In this document: piece after piece, positions 24,686 through 30,671 of the stretch
Position numbering within the stretch: position 1 is the stretch's first letter
How the letters are laid out: every line of letters starts with the position of its first letter
Assembly (NCBI GenBank): GCA_017465845.1
Contig: JAFTVH010000034.1
Coordinates: 1 to 54,812, forward strand
Direction of reading: 5' to 3'
DNA: 54,812 nt
Source: Lachnospiraceae bacterium
GTDB lineage: Bacteria; Bacillota; Clostridia; Lachnospirales; Lachnospiraceae
The notes under the pieces: model-generated
What the model was told of the DNA's origin: nothing
Databases searched by the model: none
What the model saw: only the letters and a program-made list of their open reading frames with translations
Translations under genes and position numbers: made by a program

Positions 24686-25018
24686 TTATAACATACTTTT
24701 TATTCTGGCTAATTCGCCCGCATCTAATGTTCTACCATTGTTCAGTATTTGCAGATTTTCCCATTCGCATTCCGGAACCCTTATAAGAGAATCCAGCTTA
24801 ACAAAGGACGGCATTACAAACGGTGGATTATAACTCCTTAACCTTTCGTTTGTAGGAAATGCTAATTTACGTTCCTTTCCTCTTATTGAAGAAACATTAA
24901 GAACCTCAATATAATTATTACCAACGGATACAACTAAATATGTTCTATCATACCCCGGCATTGTCCCGTCTACAAATCTGATACGCCCTAAGATTCCATG
25001 ACCTTCAACGAAATTCAT
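24686..25018 (-). CDS. PemK/MazF-like small protein, likely toxin partner of the Panacea protein
   Basis: A 110-residue protein overlapping the upstream gene: its ATG (25018-25016) shares bases with that gene's TAA, so translation is coupled. The N-terminal half reads as a small SH3-like beta barrel: GHGILGRIRFVDG, then RTYLVVSV and EVLNVSSIRGKE, a spacing seen in PemK/MazF-type mRNA interferases and their relatives. The second half has PSFVKLDSLIRV. The PemK assignment is by pattern only; the catalytic residues are not certain. Position directly after a Panacea antitoxin is the strongest argument for a toxin. It lacks its own ribosome site, as expected for coupling. Confidence 0.6.
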   Translation of the reverse strand: MNFVEGHGILGRIRFVDGTMPGYDRTYLVVSVGNNYIEVLNVSSIRGKERKLAFPTNERLRSYNPPFVMPSFVKLDSLIRVPECEWENLQILNNGRTLDAGELARIKSML

Positions 25019-25671
25019 TAATAGATCACCAACCTTCCATTATCCACATATACGCTATATGCGTCATCGTCAGCCGATAATGAAAAGCTTTCCAACTGTT
25101 CAATCATCTCGTCTGTCAATATAAAGCCATCATAATAGAATGTTACTCCATTAATAATTTCACTTGCTGTCACATCACTGGACACTTCTTTATATGCACA
25201 TATAATTTCGCGCATTCGATCAATATCCCCCGTTTGTGACATCATGTCAACAACAGAACGAGTCTTGTCATGATATCCATTATTGTTAGTTCCATTATCA
25301 AATGCTATTTTCCAAAAATCAAATGTATGGTTTATTTCTGAGAGTTCCCTTGCAGATGCTTTGCCGAATACCTCCATGATAAGATTTAATACGGCATATT
25401 CTCTTTCTGAAAATTCTGGCTGAAATGCTTCGCTATCACGTTTAAAGCCGATATAATCATTTTTATACCTTAAACGGACTTTTTCAACCACGCATCCATT
25501 TTTAAATGCAAGCACTTGTTCGCTAAACAAAGGCTCCCCATACTCAGCTATGTTCGCTAAATCTGCCAAAACTAAAAGCTTTTGCAATTTCATGTTTCCG
25601 TCATATGTGTTCGGCATTGAATCAGCACCATTTTTAATGAAAAATTTCGCAAAATCATATACGTCTTTCAT
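25018..25671 (-). CDS. Panacea-domain (DUF4065) antitoxin
   Basis: A 217-residue protein. Its N-terminal 130 residues have the SocA/GepA-like Panacea pattern: VYDFAKFFIK, then MKLQKLLVLADLA, then FKNGCVVEKVRLRYK, followed by a helical segment. Panacea domains are known as promiscuous antitoxins that neutralise unrelated toxins encoded next to them (PanAT systems). The remainder (about 150-217) is an additional acidic domain. Start ATG 25671 follows AAGGAGG by eight bases; the longer frame from 25719 has none. The promoter is the consensus site at 25809-25781 on the minus strand, and a palindrome at 25725-25740 lies in the leader. It shares its intergenic region with a divergent SOS-regulated operon. 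Confidence 0.82.
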   Translation of the reverse strand: MKDVYDFAKFFIKNGADSMPNTYDGNMKLQKLLVLADLANIAEYGEPLFSEQVLAFKNGCVVEKVRLRYKNDYIGFKRDSEAFQPEFSEREYAVLNLIMEVFGKASARELSEINHTFDFWKIAFDNGTNNNGYHDKTRSVVDMMSQTGDIDRMREIICAYKEVSSDVTASEIINGVTFYYDGFILTDEMIEQLESFSLSADDDAYSVYVDNGRLVIY

Positions 25672-25724
25672 TTTGACATCCTCCTTAAATAATTTCCACT
25701 CCAATTTGAAGTGGCCCAAAATAG

Positions 25725-25846: not shown

Positions 25847-25900
25847 TTGACAAATCAGAACAAACGTTCTATTCTATATACAGAACATTTGTTCTGATTT
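25847..25900 (+). promoter_or_regulatory. SOS promoter with two LexA boxes
   Basis: TTGACA (25847-25852), 17 bases, TATTCT (25870-25875). Box 1 GAACAAACGTTC (25858-25869) fills the spacer. Box 2 GAACATTTGTTC (25883-25894), within the 16-bp palindrome CAGAACATTTGTTCTG, covers the expected transcription start. Both match the GAAC-N4-GTTC core of Firmicute LexA/DinR sites. A perfect 13-bp inverted repeat AAATCAGAACAAA/TTTGTTCTGATTT (25852-25864 with 25888-25900) spans both. Confidence 0.85.
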
Positions 25901-25967
25901 TGATTGTTCGCTTTGCAAAGAACCGGACAAGACTGTACAAGGATTTGTAGAACTTGTAGAGGCATTA

Positions 25968-25993
25968 TGTAAAGGTGTTTTGTAAAGGTGTTT
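25968..25993 (+). repeat. 13-bp tandem duplication in the leader
   Basis: TGTAAAGGTGTTT occurs twice in direct succession (25968-25980 and 25981-25993) in the leader of the radical SAM gene. It looks like a recent slippage event. Confidence 0.7.
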
Positions 25994-26038
25994 TGCGAAG
26001 GCATGTAAACCACATGAGGAAAGGATGGGGCAAGGCGT

Positions 26039-27391
26039 ATGCAATATCTGGCGGCAGGTCATGAGATGACATTAATGGAGAAGCTGGAGATTCTGACGGA
26101 TGCGGCCAAATATGATGTAGCCTGTACTTCCAGCGGAGTGGAGCGTAAAGGAAACGGGAAGGACATGGGGAATTGCCTGAAGGCCGGAATCTGTCACAGT
26201 TTCAGCAGTGATGGAAGGTGTGTATCCCTGCTTAAGATCTTATTTACCAACGAGTGTATTTACGACTGTAAATATTGTCTGAACAGGAAAAGCAATGATG
26301 TACCAAGGGCGACTTTTACACCGGAGGAGGTCTGCACGCTGACGATGGAGTTTTATCGCAGAAATTATATCGAGGGGTTGTTCTTAAGCTCGGGAATTAT
26401 TCAGAATCCGACCTATACCATGGAACTGATTTACCATACGTTATTGTTGCTGCGCCGTAAGTATCGCTTTAATGGTTATGTGCATGTGAAAGCCATACCG
26501 GGAGCCGATGCGAGGTTGATTCAAAGTGTAGGATTTCTGGCAGACAGGATGAGCATCAATCTGGAATTGCCTACAGCACAAGGGCTTAAGGAACTGGCCC
26601 CCAACAAGCACCGGAAGAGTATTTTGGCACCTATGAGACAGATTCAGAATGGGATCGCGGAGAATAAAAATGAACTGATGGTCTACCGCCATGCGCCTCA
26701 TTTTGTATCGGGCGGGCAGTCTACCCAGATGATCATCGGTGCTACGCCGGAGAATGATTTTCAGATTATGTCAGTGGCAGAGAATCTGTACCGGAAATTC
26801 GAACTGAAGAGAGTGTTCTATTCTGCTTTCGTCAATGTGAATCAGGATGCATCACTGCCGGCGCTGCCGGGAGGACCGCCGCTGCTTCGGGAACACAGGC
26901 TGTATCAGGCGGACTGGCTGCTTCGTTTTTATGGATTCTCGGCGGGAGAGCTTCTGGACGAGCAGAGACCGTTCTTCAATGTGATGCTGGACCCGAAGGA
27001 AGATTGGGCTGTCCGTCATTTGGAGTATTTTCCGGTGGAAATCAACAGGGCGCCTATGAATATGTTGCTGAGAGTGCCGGGGGTGGGGGTAAAGAGCGCA
27101 CAAAGGATTATAGCAGCCAGGAGGAGTACGAAGCTGACCTTTGCCGATTTGAAGAAAATAGGCGTGGTGCTGAAACGTGCCCTTTATTTTATTACCTGCA
27201 GTGGGCGGATGATGTATCCTACTAAATTGGAGGAGGATTATATCATCAGGAACCTGACCGGTGAGAAAGACAGAATACGGTTCGGCAGTGATGGGATGAC
27301 TTATCGGCAGATGTCGTTGTTTGACGACAACAGCTTTGCGGGGCTTCCGGCTATTGACGACAGGCTTAAGGTGGCATCAGGACAGCTATAG
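26039..27391 (+). CDS. Putative DNA modification/repair radical SAM protein (TIGR03916-like)
   Basis: A 450-residue radical SAM enzyme. The 4Fe-4S motif is CIYDCKYC (Cys73, 77 and 80), preceded by DAAKYDVACTSSG and followed by the conserved FLSSGI region. C-terminally, LRVPGVGVKSAQRIIAARR (about 342-360) is a helix-hairpin-helix that binds DNA. This layout matches the family described as radical SAM proteins linked to a uracil-DNA-glycosylase-like partner; the chemistry is unknown. The next gene is that partner family. Start ATG 26039 has only a weak AAGG site; ATG 26066 (MTLMEKLEIL) is an alternative closer to the family start. Two LexA boxes in the promoter indicate induction by DNA damage. 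Confidence 0.85.
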   Translation: MQYLAAGHEMTLMEKLEILTDAAKYDVACTSSGVERKGNGKDMGNCLKAGICHSFSSDGRCVSLLKILFTNECIYDCKYCLNRKSNDVPRATFTPEEVCTLTMEFYRRNYIEGLFLSSGIIQNPTYTMELIYHTLLLLRRKYRFNGYVHVKAIPGADARLIQSVGFLADRMSINLELPTAQGLKELAPNKHRKSILAPMRQIQNGIAENKNELMVYRHAPHFVSGGQSTQMIIGATPENDFQIMSVAENLYRKFELKRVFYSAFVNVNQDASLPALPGGPPLLREHRLYQADWLLRFYGFSAGELLDEQRPFFNVMLDPKEDWAVRHLEYFPVEINRAPMNMLLRVPGVGVKSAQRIIAARRSTKLTFADLKKIGVVLKRALYFITCSGRMMYPTKLEEDYIIRNLTGEKDRIRFGSDGMTYRQMSLFDDNSFAGLPAIDDRLKVASGQL

Positions 27392-27415
27392 TGCTTTGGC
27401 AGCAGGGGGGACGGA

Positions 27416-28183
27416 ATGATCGTATATCAGTGCAAGGATTCACTGGAAAGTATTTTTACAGCAGTCTTTAACGCCTATGAAGAGCATCGTGACCATAATG
27501 ATACCAGAATCAGCCTGGACGATGAATACTATCTTTTTGCAGAGTATGTTCCGGTCGAAACAGATATAGAAAAGGCTGCCAAAGTTATACGTACTTTGAA
27601 AAGGCGGTTTGGAGAAGAGGACTATTTGTCAATCTGCCATGCGTTGTCCTCTCCGGAACCGGATAAAGCGCAGGCGGTTTATCAGACGATCGTAAAAGGG
27701 CTTAAGGGAAAAGTGCGCCCCGGTCATCTATTGGACAATTTGGCGGATAATGACTGCAACAGGACATTTGTACTGGCCAGGGCTGCCGGACGGGAAATGA
27801 GCCACTTATATGGTTTCCTGCGTTTTCAGGAGGTGAAGAACGGTATTCTGTATGCCAAAATCGGACCGAAGAATAATCTTATGACGTTTTTGATGCCGCA
27901 TTTTGCGGACAGATTCCCTATGGAGAATTTTGTTATTTATGATGACAATCGTGGAATCTTTGGGATTCATCCGGCAGGAAGGGAGTGGTATCTGGCGTGC
28001 GGATCGGAGAACGACCTGGAAGAAGAGATGTTGGCCGTTTCAGAAAGTGAACAACAGATACAGGGGCTATTCAGGCACTTTTGCAAGAGCATTGCCATTC
28101 AGGAAAGGGAGAACAAAAAGCTGCAGCAGAATATGCTCCCACTCAGATTTCAGGAATATATGTTGGAATTCGATAACAATTGA
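27416..28183 (+). CDS. DUF4130 protein linked to DNA-repair radical SAM (TIGR03915-like)
   Basis: A 255-residue protein following the radical SAM gene by 24 bases with a G-rich ribosome site. It contains the conserved block RAAGREMSHLYGFLRFQE, then YAKIGPKNNLM and VIYDDNRGIFGIH, which mark the DUF4130 domain. In other bacteria this domain is found alone beside a radical SAM protein or fused to a uracil-DNA-glycosylase domain. No glycosylase domain is fused here. The function is unknown; a role in repairing or modifying DNA is inferred from constant pairing with the radical SAM family and, here, from the shared SOS promoter. Confidence 0.8.
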   Translation: MIVYQCKDSLESIFTAVFNAYEEHRDHNDTRISLDDEYYLFAEYVPVETDIEKAAKVIRTLKRRFGEEDYLSICHALSSPEPDKAQAVYQTIVKGLKGKVRPGHLLDNLADNDCNRTFVLARAAGREMSHLYGFLRFQEVKNGILYAKIGPKNNLMTFLMPHFADRFPMENFVIYDDNRGIFGIHPAGREWYLACGSENDLEEEMLAVSESEQQIQGLFRHFCKSIAIQERENKKLQQNMLPLRFQEYMLEFDNN

Positions 28184-28253
28184 CTACCTGTCCGGGATAG
28201 TGTACTATCTGAATAGAAGTTATATCAGACACTTGGGTGGAAGGACGAATTCT

Positions 28254-30671
28254 ATGGAAGAAATGAGGATATCTGTTCGCAGACTGGTTGAATTTTTACT
28301 GCGTCAAGGCGATATTGACAATCGGTTTCAGGGAGCGCCGGAGGATGCCATGCAGGAGGGAAGCAGGATTCATCGGATGATTCAGAAGCGCATGGGCGGG
28401 GATTATCAAGCCGAGGTGTTCCTGCGGTATTCCTATCCCACAGACAATTACATGCTGGTAGTGGAGGGAAGAGCCGACGGAGTGATAGACACCTCATCAC
28501 AGGATGAAGGAAATAATTCTGGCAGGGATGTGACAATTGACGAAATTAAAGGGACTTATCGTGATGTGGCGCGGATGAAAGAGCCGGTGTTTGTCCATCT
28601 TGCTCAGGCCAGATGCTATGCCTATATGTATGGCATCAAAGAAAATCTGCAGGCCGTTAAGATCAGGATGACTTATTGTAATATCGACTCAGAGGATATT
28701 CGCTACTTTTATGAAGAGCACTCTATGGAAGTACTGGCGGAGTGGTTCCTGTGGCTGGTGGAAGAATATAAGAAGTGGTCAGATTTTGAATGGGAATGGC
28801 GTCAGGTGAAGAAAGAATCCATTGAGAAGCTGCCCTTTCCTTTTCCTTATAGAGAAGGTCAGAAGGAACTGGTGACTTATGTGTACCAGACAATTTATCA
28901 TAAGAGGAAGCTGTTTCTGGAGGCTCCAACGGGAGTGGGGAAGACGATTTCTACAGTGTTCCCGTCAGTGAAAGCTGTAGGGAAGGGAATGGCTGACCGG
29001 ATTTTTTACCTGACAGCCAAGACAATTACCAGAACGGTGGCAGATGATACGTTCCAGCTGTTGCGTGATAAGGGGCTGCGGTTTAAAAGTGTGATACTGA
29101 CAGCCAAGGACAAAATCTGCTTTATGGAACAGGTGGAGTGTAATCCTCAGCATTGTCCATATGCCAAAGGACATTACGACAGAATCAATGACGCGGTGTA
29201 TGATTTTCTGGTCCATGAGGAGAGTTTTTCAAGGGAAAAGGTAGAAGAGTACGCAAGGAAGTATACAGTGTGTCCTTTTGAATTGTGCCTGGATATGAGT
29301 TTGTTTGCGGATGGTGTCATATGCGATTATAACTATCTGTTTGACCCACATGTGTATTTAAAGAGGTTCTTTGGAGACAATTCTCAGGGAAATCACATTT
29401 TTCTCATAGATGAGGCTCATAACTTGTTGGAACGCGGGAGGGAGATGTACAGTGCTTCTCTGATCAAAGAAGAGTTTCTGGAGTTGAAACGTGGTCTTGA
29501 CAAAGAAGAGTCTGATTGTGTCTTGGTGAAAGAAGGCTACAGCGGCTGGATCATGAAGCAGCTGGAAGCATGCAACAAACAGATGCTTGCGCTGAAGCGT
29601 GAATGCGAGGACTACCAGGTAGTAACGGAAATAGATCCTTTTGTGAATTCAGTGCTTCGGCTGCACACGGCCATTGACAGTTATCTGGACGAGCAGGAGG
29701 AAGGTCAGCCGGAGATAAAAGAACAGCTGCTGGAATTTTACTTTAAGATCTGCCACTTCCTGGACATCTATGAGCGGGTAGATGAGAATTATGTGAAATA
29801 TACCCAGATTATGGAGGACGGAAGCTTTCTGCTGAAGCTGTTTTGCGTGGATCCTTCCAAGAATCTGAAAGAATGTATGGCAAGAGGGCGGAGCAGTATT
29901 TTATTTTCAGCCACTTTTTTGCCTATCCAGTATTATAAGGGACTTCTGGGAGGGGAAAAAGAAGACTACGAAGTGTATGCCAAGTCGGTATTTCAGCCCG
30001 AAAATCGGGCACTTCTGGTGGCACGGGATGTTACCAGCAAGTATACCAGACGATCAGAGGAAGAGTTTCTGGCTATTGCCAGGTATATTGATGAAATTGT
30101 GACGAAGCGAAGCGGCAATTATATGGTGTTCTGTCCTTCTTATGCATTCCTTCAGAATATCTATGATATTTACACAGAACAGTTTGCTGCGGAAGGAAAA
30201 GAGTGCATTATCCAACAGGACTATATGAACGAGCAGGCAAGAGAAGAGTTCCTGGAATATTTTCAGGAGGAGACGGATCATATTCTCATTGGTTTCTGCG
30301 TGCTGGGCGGTATCTTCAGTGAGGGCATCGATCTGAAGAATGACAGGCTGATCGGTGTCATGATCGTCGGGACAGGGATTCCGCAGGTATGCCAGGAAAG
30401 GGAACTTCTGAAGAATCATTTTAATAAGAATGGTGAAAACGGCTTCGATTATTCCTATCGGTATCCGGGAATGAATAAAGTGCTGCAGGCAGCAGGGCGA
30501 GTCATCCGCACAGCTGAAGACGTGGGAATTATTGCCCTTTTGGATGAAAGATTTCTCCAATATGCTTACCAGAAGATGTTCCCAAGAGAGTGGGAACGCT
30601 TTGAAGTTGTCACGGTGGATACAGTAGGAAAACAGGTACAGGACTTTTGGAACCGAGTTATCCACAAGTGA
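28254..30671 (+). CDS. XPD/DinG-like DNA helicase with N-terminal Cas4/RecB-like nuclease domain
   Basis: An 805-residue protein. The N-terminal 170 residues have a PD-(D/E)XK-like fold pattern: EGSRIHRMIQ, VEGRADGVID, then IDEIKG (Asp-Glu-x-Lys near 97). Superfamily 2 helicase motifs follow: Walker A EAPTGVGKT (Lys about 230), DEAH at about 386, and QAAGRVIRT (motif VI) near the end. Four cysteines between about 289 and 360 (KICFMEQVEC, HCPYA, VCPFELC) can hold the 4Fe-4S cluster of XPD/DinG helicases. Such proteins unwind 5'-3' at damaged DNA. The frame extends back to 27903 inside the previous gene, but AAGGA before ATG 28254 fixes the start. It follows the DUF4130 gene by 70 bases with no terminator, so it is probably under the same SOS promoter. 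Confidence 0.88.
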   Translation: MEEMRISVRRLVEFLLRQGDIDNRFQGAPEDAMQEGSRIHRMIQKRMGGDYQAEVFLRYSYPTDNYMLVVEGRADGVIDTSSQDEGNNSGRDVTIDEIKGTYRDVARMKEPVFVHLAQARCYAYMYGIKENLQAVKIRMTYCNIDSEDIRYFYEEHSMEVLAEWFLWLVEEYKKWSDFEWEWRQVKKESIEKLPFPFPYREGQKELVTYVYQTIYHKRKLFLEAPTGVGKTISTVFPSVKAVGKGMADRIFYLTAKTITRTVADDTFQLLRDKGLRFKSVILTAKDKICFMEQVECNPQHCPYAKGHYDRINDAVYDFLVHEESFSREKVEEYARKYTVCPFELCLDMSLFADGVICDYNYLFDPHVYLKRFFGDNSQGNHIFLIDEAHNLLERGREMYSASLIKEEFLELKRGLDKEESDCVLVKEGYSGWIMKQLEACNKQMLALKRECEDYQVVTEIDPFVNSVLRLHTAIDSYLDEQEEGQPEIKEQLLEFYFKICHFLDIYERVDENYVKYTQIMEDGSFLLKLFCVDPSKNLKECMARGRSSILFSATFLPIQYYKGLLGGEKEDYEVYAKSVFQPENRALLVARDVTSKYTRRSEEEFLAIARYIDEIVTKRSGNYMVFCPSYAFLQNIYDIYTEQFAAEGKECIIQQDYMNEQAREEFLEYFQEETDHILIGFCVLGGIFSEGIDLKNDRLIGVMIVGTGIPQVCQERELLKNHFNKNGENGFDYSYRYPGMNKVLQAAGRVIRTAEDVGIIALLDERFLQYAYQKMFPREWERFEVVTVDTVGKQVQDFWNRVIHK

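Follow-up and report, generated by a model that had tools for sequence, protein, structure and literature searches.

A predicted SOS operon in a Lachnospiraceae contig

The contig JAFTVH010000034.1 of a Lachnospiraceae bacterium (assembly GCA_017465845.1; all 54,812 nucleotides, hereafter the window) carries three closely spaced genes that encode a radical S-adenosylmethionine (SAM) protein with a helix-hairpin-helix, a protein of the DUF4130 family, and a nuclease-helicase that fits the definition of EndoDinG. The genes are preceded by a promoter containing two GAAC-N4-GTTC palindromes, the predicted LexA (SOS) boxes (Table 1). Judging from sequence comparisons, we consider it probable that these genes form a LexA-repressed operon of gut Clostridia in which the radical SAM-DUF4130 pair is the fixed core, EndoDinG having come under the same switch in part of the family.

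Table 1 Features of the predicted operon, in window coordinates.
Feature	Positions	Strand	Evidence
Sigma-70-type promoter, TTGACA-17-TATTCT	25847..25875	+	recA of the same genome likewise has TTGACA-17-TATTCT
Predicted LexA (SOS) box 1, in the promoter spacer	25858..25869	+	Exact GAAC-N4-GTTC, GAACAAACGTTC
Predicted LexA (SOS) box 2, at the expected transcription start	25883..25894	+	Exact GAAC-N4-GTTC, GAACATTTGTTC
Radical SAM protein, TIGR03916, with a C-terminal helix-hairpin-helix (COG4277-type)	26039..27391	+	686 bits
DUF4130 protein, TIGR03915, without a fused uracil-DNA glycosylase	27416..28183	+	201 bits (cut-off, 112)
Putative EndoDinG, N-terminal PD-(D/E)XK nuclease and XPD-like Fe-S helicase	28254..30671	+	Invariant columns; match to PDB 9kqh

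The -35 element (25847-25852) and the -10 element (25870-25875) are separated by a 17 bp spacer, which box 1 fills, whereas box 2 spans the expected start site, exactly as described in the first-pass annotation of the window. These are the only two exact GAAC-N4-GTTC sites in the whole window, with 0.67 expected by chance; because at least two such sites per window were obtained in 10 of 100 shuffles, the box count is weak as evidence by itself. In the same genome (a draft of 4.19 Mb, 85% complete), a 12-mer identical to box 2 is present upstream of recA and at lexA. The first, imperfect box of the recA promoter lies 11 nt from the start of the -35 element, the same offset as that of operon box 1, and the second box is displaced by 3 nt relative to operon box 2. 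The promoter palindrome is common to the operon, recA and lexA, which places the operon in the predicted LexA/SOS regulon of this genome.

The three reading frames are separated by 24 bp (genes 1 and 2) and 70 bp (genes 2 and 3), and a scan of the window revealed no terminator-like site in either gap, which bears out the original description of three close genes with no terminator between them. The same scan flagged the box 2 palindrome (25881-25896, upstream of gene 1), the overall number of terminator-like sites being about that expected by chance. A promoter-like match (9/12) ahead of the helicase gene, at 28180-28208, is of a kind that is about as common in shuffled sequences. Co-transcription of all three genes at this locus appears likely.

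The boxes are conserved upstream of radical SAM orthologues

We examined 250 genomes of the same family (f1, read as Lachnospiraceae), among which the radical SAM protein and the DUF4130 protein each exceed the respective family cut-off in 138. With four fragmented loci (G174, G205, G321 and G347) left out, 134 radical SAM loci were used, and sequence was taken for 120 of these. Of the 120 radical SAM genes, 67 have an exact box in the 600 bp that precede them (3 of the 120 loci had fewer than 600 upstream bases); these comprise 31 of 49 helicase-linked and 36 of 71 unlinked loci. The control patterns CTTG-N4-CAAG and GTTC-N4-GAAC were found upstream in 1/120 and 0/120 of the same loci, respectively, and the remainder of the 120 loci contains 7 exact boxes in 965,088 bases.

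The 53 loci without an exact box were searched with a weight matrix derived from 86 exact sites, with the 99th percentile of null stretches (350 bp, shuffled or random) as the threshold, such that about 1% of these pass as well, a few with high scores. A matrix box was detected within 350 bp in 47 of the 53, so that an exact or a matrix box is present in 114 of the 120 loci. Of the 86 boxes, 51 overlap a sigma-70-like promoter, compared with 5.3 expected with shuffled flanks. Exact boxes were also found at 39 of 80 loci obtained by scanning a contig collection, including Paenibacillus and Heliobacterium, a set that partly shares assemblies with the 120 family loci and is not independent of them. 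Among the 30 loci of a sample of the order, an exact box precedes 5 of 5 loci of family f1 and 3 of 4 loci of family f2. On a FastTree tree of 118 loci, the presence of an exact box requires 31 changes; therefore, exact matches appear to come and go.

Given the exact and matrix matches combined, the radical SAM and DUF4130 genes are predicted to belong to the SOS regulon almost throughout this family, whether the helicase is present or not. The SOS control initially proposed from the window, which was to be checked by box conservation in related genomes, is strongly supported by these counts, and we regard LexA control of the pair as nearly certain on comparative grounds.

The radical SAM-DUF4130 pair

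The identities originally assigned to the first two genes are upheld by the family models. The radical SAM protein scores 686 bits against a TIGR03916 cut-off of 343.5 bits, and the DUF4130 protein, with a score of 145 bits, also exceeds the cut-off of PF13566; in the radical SAM protein, the Pfam models for the helix-hairpin-helix (24.1 vs 27) and Radical_SAM (24.6 vs 29.5) both fall slightly below their cut-offs. We take COG4277 to be equivalent to TIGR03916. The CxxxCxxC motif (C73/C77/C80) is invariant in 39 radical SAM sequences, including those of Thioclava and Spirosoma, and so are, in the same sequences across phyla, C29, C52, H53 and C61 ahead of the motif, which can fairly be read as a second metal site. 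The search of the PDB with the radical SAM sequence profile yielded 12 weak matches (E from 0.006 to 0.9), mainly ComEA-type helix-hairpin-helix domains and radical SAM cores; the DUF4130 profile gave no PDB match up to E 10. Two alignments of the DUF4130 protein agree on the invariant residues R136, F137, F163, R166 and R231.

Both genes, 24 bp apart in the window, are present in 118 of the 120 family loci, and our literature searches found no assigned chemistry for the radical SAM-DUF4130 family, so that the two families remain, as first stated, linked but without an assigned reaction. In the sample of the order, each of the pair exceeds its cut-off in 57 of 146 genomes, the two lists agreeing on inspection, and TIGR03915 is over its cut-off in 35 of 199 genomes of a phylum sample.

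The known fusion partner of DUF4130 appears to be missing from this set. In Thioclava, DUF4130 is fused to UdgX in a protein of 478 aa; the UdgX model TIGR03914 exceeds its cut-off in 0 of the 199 phylum genomes, 138 of which have weaker matches that we take to be other family-4-like glycosylases. In the source draft genome, TIGR03914 gives no match up to an E value of 1e-10, and the Pfam scan detected no glycosylase gene within the operon. We therefore read the core pair as the Bacillota version, lacking the glycosylase, of an SOS repair family that is widespread.

Some genomes contain additional, diverged radical SAM paralogues that score below the cut-off. One of these, in another family of the order, is a second radical SAM protein encoded convergently beside a helicase (G109, contig C11, 12106-15488), and others were detected in G019, G027, G101, G117 and G130. 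Searches of 72,556 plasmid and 50,697 phage records also gave radical SAM homologues, in 158 and 10 of them, respectively; therefore, the family also travels on large replicons, possibly including phages.

The nuclease-helicase fits EndoDinG

The start of the third gene was taken as the ATG at 28254, given that the 922-aa frame from the TTG at 27903 would overlap the DUF4130 gene. The product scores above the Pfam cut-offs for Helicase_C_2 (PF13307) and DEAD_2 (PF06733); it also matches six NCBIfam models, each below the respective cut-off. In an alignment of 47 sequences, the nuclease residues H40, E54, D75, E97 and K99, along with Y122, are invariant, as are Walker A, the DEAH motif and the four cysteines of the Fe-S set (C289, C296, C301 and C340). 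The protein matches PDB 9kqh ('DNA 5'-3' helicase') over nearly its full length, with E 4e-223 for the profile and 4e-154 for the single sequence.

The first-pass annotation described an XPD/DinG-like Fe-S helicase with a Cas4-like N-terminus. The helicase assignment stands, and the N-terminus is better described as a PD-(D/E)XK nuclease of the kind found in EndoDinG. The hallmark of Cas4 is, as we understand it, the location of Fe-S cysteines inside the nuclease domain. No cysteine is invariant in columns 1-190 of the 47 sequences, where C121 alone is nearly so, and the conserved four-cysteine set is located in the helicase part; therefore, a Cas4-type Fe-S cluster is not indicated.

The protein fits EndoDinG as defined in the accessible text of PMC11981726: it has the same domain order, the H-E-D-E-K residues (equated with the named ones by order, not by structure), the four-cysteine Fe-S set, and the near full-length similarity to 9kqh. 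The comparison with the Bdellovibrio EndoDinG was made through this definition rather than through the Bdellovibrio sequence, and the endonuclease and helicase activities of EndoDinG are given there as unpublished Bdellovibrio data. What differs here is the setting, behind an SOS promoter and together with a radical SAM gene; the terms 'radical SAM', 'Clostridi' and 'Lachnospir' do not occur in the main text of PMC11981726.

Linkage between the pair and EndoDinG

The helicase is found, at E up to 1e-20, in 210 of the 250 family genomes and, in at least 49 of 134, each with a different genus code, is located 0.8-4.2 kb downstream of the pair in the same orientation; this is a lower bound because G073 and fragmented cases lie outside the helicase matches listed. 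In the sample of the order, the helicase follows the pair in four genomes (G000, G073, G110 and G142), all of family f1, as determined by comparison of coordinates, where split contigs could hide further cases. The expectation that the three genes are kept together therefore holds for part of the family, and in the order sample the arrangement is confined to that family.

Among the 120 family loci, the helicase gene is in line downstream in 50 (one of them cut by the end of the stretch) and convergent in 1. The gap between the pair and the helicase is shorter than 300 bp in 21 of the 50 linked loci, 300-1000 bp in 24, and longer in 5. In four of the compact loci, the genes overlap or are at most 4 bp apart (by first-start gene calls), and the operon in the window is of the compact kind. 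Between the start of the radical SAM match and the start of the helicase, the 50 linked loci contain a single exact box, directly before the L067 helicase, and a matrix box was detected between the DUF4130 gene and the helicase in 2 of 45 gaps scored.

Several observations weigh against the proposed operon or against a lasting place of EndoDinG in it. Exact sites as such are not enriched genome-wide, given that the plus strand of the whole source genome contains 32 exact GAAC-N4-GTTC sites vs 52 of the reversed control pattern. In the order sample, an exact box was found at only 1 of the 21 loci from families other than f1 and f2, and SOS control is therefore not universal in the order. The chemistry suggested for the pair is derived solely from family membership. 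The helicase is not downstream in 55 of the 105 loci that could be classified. In all 24 linked loci with a 300-1000 bp gap, and hence 24 of the 50, the gap contains an unrelated HPr-like gene, which would give the helicase space for a promoter of its own. None of 40 unlinked helicases, taken from the matches listed rather than at random (20 with the pair elsewhere in the genome and 20 without a pair row), has an exact box, one of these having 188 upstream bases only; matrix boxes were detected at 3 of the 40. Finally, EndoDinG has recurrent neighbours of its own, namely, NUBPL-type, HPr-like and PurL-like genes.

At the unlinked helicases, an HPr-like gene is located upstream in 22 of 40 loci, a NUBPL-type ATPase gene (PF10609) further upstream in 5, and a PurL-like gene downstream in 9, all these counts being lower bounds because of short flanks. 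PurL-like is the name that we presume for this downstream gene, the first 150 residues of which gave no Pfam match. The same neighbours flank the linked loci, where the NUBPL-type ATPase gene precedes the radical SAM gene in 12 of the 50 and the PurL-like gene lies downstream in 19; the two were seen just once each among the 55 loci that lack the helicase. In 9 of these 55 (e.g. L106, L139 and L144), the pair instead precedes comM-, dprA- and topA-type genes, a second recurrent setting. The HPr-like protein beside EndoDinG, a PTS-type protein that recurs in linked and unlinked loci alike (e.g. L121), seems to lack what we take to be the usual histidine.

The simplest reading of these gene orders is that the SOS pair was inserted between the NUBPL-type ATPase gene and an HPr-like-EndoDinG cluster, the HPr-like gene being lost later, more than once; it is gone from the operon in the window. 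On the tree of 118 loci, with 13 unclassifiable rows left out, the linked and unlinked states require 9 changes, and the compact order (21 rows) requires 10 changes vs 19.6 with shuffled labels; the number of HPr losses is uncertain because support is weak for 45 of the 115 inner branches. EndoDinG looks like an optional partner of the SOS pair, recruited rather than founding. We reject a single ancestral three-gene pathway in view of the unlinked helicases without exact boxes, the intervening HPr-like gene and the helicase's own neighbours, and the same facts weaken the earlier proposal that the three genes make up one complete lesion-processing pathway.

Comparison with known systems

Among the closest known systems is the COG4277-COG1573 operon, which encodes a radical SAM/HhH protein and a uracil-DNA glycosylase. 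For Bacteroidetes, SOS control of this operon is predicted in the accessible part of PMC8565304, which also refers to reports on Verrucomicrobia and Alphaproteobacteria; SOS control of the radical SAM family is therefore not new. Like the pair described here, that operon is, as presented in this part, a two-gene LexA-controlled unit with a protein equated to the TIGR03916 radical SAM protein. The GAAC-N4-GTTC box differs in type from both Bacteroidetes motifs given there, and the nuclease-helicase follows the pair in place of the glycosylase. The partner in the corresponding operon of Thioclava is DUF4130 fused to UdgX, whereas no glycosylase domain is encoded here. With the glycosylase missing, we reject membership in the COG4277-uracil-glycosylase operon family; the operon is a relative of that family, not a member. 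The match to the NCBIfam pair TIGR03916/TIGR03915 is complete, both proteins being far over the cut-off and encoded by adjacent genes, with only the third gene extra. Thus, the glycosylase-free, EndoDinG-bearing form is a variant of the known SOS radical SAM operon. In the literature that was accessible to our searches, in part only as excerpts, we found neither SOS control of the pair in Bacillota nor its linkage to EndoDinG described.

Spore photoproduct lyase (SplB) is likewise a DNA-linked radical SAM protein and is SOS-controlled in several species according to the accessible part of PMC8565304. The operon protein differs from it in the family model that it matches, in the extra invariant Cys/His set and in the helix-hairpin-helix, the comparison being one of family features with no SplB sequence aligned. 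A Gram-positive SOS core includes a radical SAM protein (PMC7739468), and LexA binds a radical SAM gene in Streptomyces (PMC9380542), neither of them specified further in the accessible parts of these papers; either may belong to the TIGR03916 family or to another one.

Proposed function and alternatives

Under the proposed LexA-repressed operon, DNA damage would activate RecA, LexA would presumably be cleaved, and the promoter, the regulation of which is supported by the comparative data, would open, such that the three genes would be transcribed together. The radical SAM protein, guided by its helix-hairpin-helix and by the DUF4130 protein, would then most likely carry out a radical reaction, the substrate being either a damaged or modified base or an adduct between an enzyme and DNA, and EndoDinG, under the same switch, might open and cut the strand around lesions bound or converted by the pair. 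Such a shared lesion pathway of the pair and the helicase is conceivable, although we hold it to be somewhat doubtful. The near-constant predicted SOS set in a large family, with no glycosylase, narrows the possible function and provides an induction condition, and EndoDinG would be a natural partner enzyme for studying the lesion and the order of events.

The strongest competing explanation is that only the pair is an SOS unit and that EndoDinG is a housekeeping helicase that came to lie downstream through a chance insertion, subject to read-through but with no shared task. The scarcity of boxes at unlinked helicases, the HPr-like and NUBPL-type genes that precede them, the concentration of linkage mostly in one part of the tree, with 9 changes needed overall, and the three or four other genes that intervene in each of the five long-gap loci all fit this explanation. 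It accounts less well for linkage in at least 49 genomes, each of a different genus code, and for a compact order that apparently arose more than once by HPr loss, with some of the genes overlapping. We consider a chance neighbour without a shared task unlikely, and retain as the preferred reading the LexA-repressed operon with EndoDinG as an optional member.

A more specific version of this operon, which we deem rather improbable, is that EndoDinG holds the position occupied by UdgX elsewhere, so that the pair would convert or tag the lesion by radical chemistry, without a glycosylase, and EndoDinG would excise the tagged strand; if true, this would be an SOS way of excising lesions that needs neither UvrABC nor base-excision glycosylases.

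It is very improbable that the genes form a defence module, in which the nuclease-helicase and the radical SAM protein would act on phage or plasmid DNA, with SOS control sensing infection. The helicase does match the PADLOC type IV DinG model (7.8e-125), and the radical SAM family is represented in plasmid and phage records, but that model is CRISPR-associated, and PADLOC gave no match for either protein of the pair. Most of the plasmids (142 of the 158) are classed as non-mobilizable, 8 of the 10 phage records are, by name, unannotated faecal contigs, and the pair is found repeatedly in ordinary genomic settings, for example ahead of comM-, dprA- and topA-type genes. That the boxes are chance palindromes without a LexA function, as the shuffles and the lack of genome-wide enrichment might suggest, is hardly credible in view of their position in the promoter, the near identity with the recA layout and the enrichment upstream of orthologues (67/120 vs 1 and 0 for the controls).

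Other sites and neighbouring genes

Of the 30 exact sites outside the window in the source genome, 20 were taken for analysis of the gene context: 11 fall within a predicted reading frame and 9 outside. Among the latter, one is located before recA and one between lexA and a LysM-domain gene. Another (L007; contig C55, around 23278) is a perfect SOS-type box directly upstream of an Mrr-type restriction endonuclease-like gene (PF04471), which is likely to be a further SOS gene of this genome. The remaining six are L008, L009, L011, L012, L014 and L020. Two of these, L008 and L014 (contigs C76 and C130, near the contig start), share an almost identical stretch with the site GAACAATTGTTC outside reading frames, possibly a repeat or a mobile element with an SOS-type box.

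Within the window, the minus strand next to the operon (24686-25719) carries two overlapping genes in divergent orientation, one SocA/Panacea antitoxin-like and the other small and with no Pfam match, a possible toxin-antitoxin pair.

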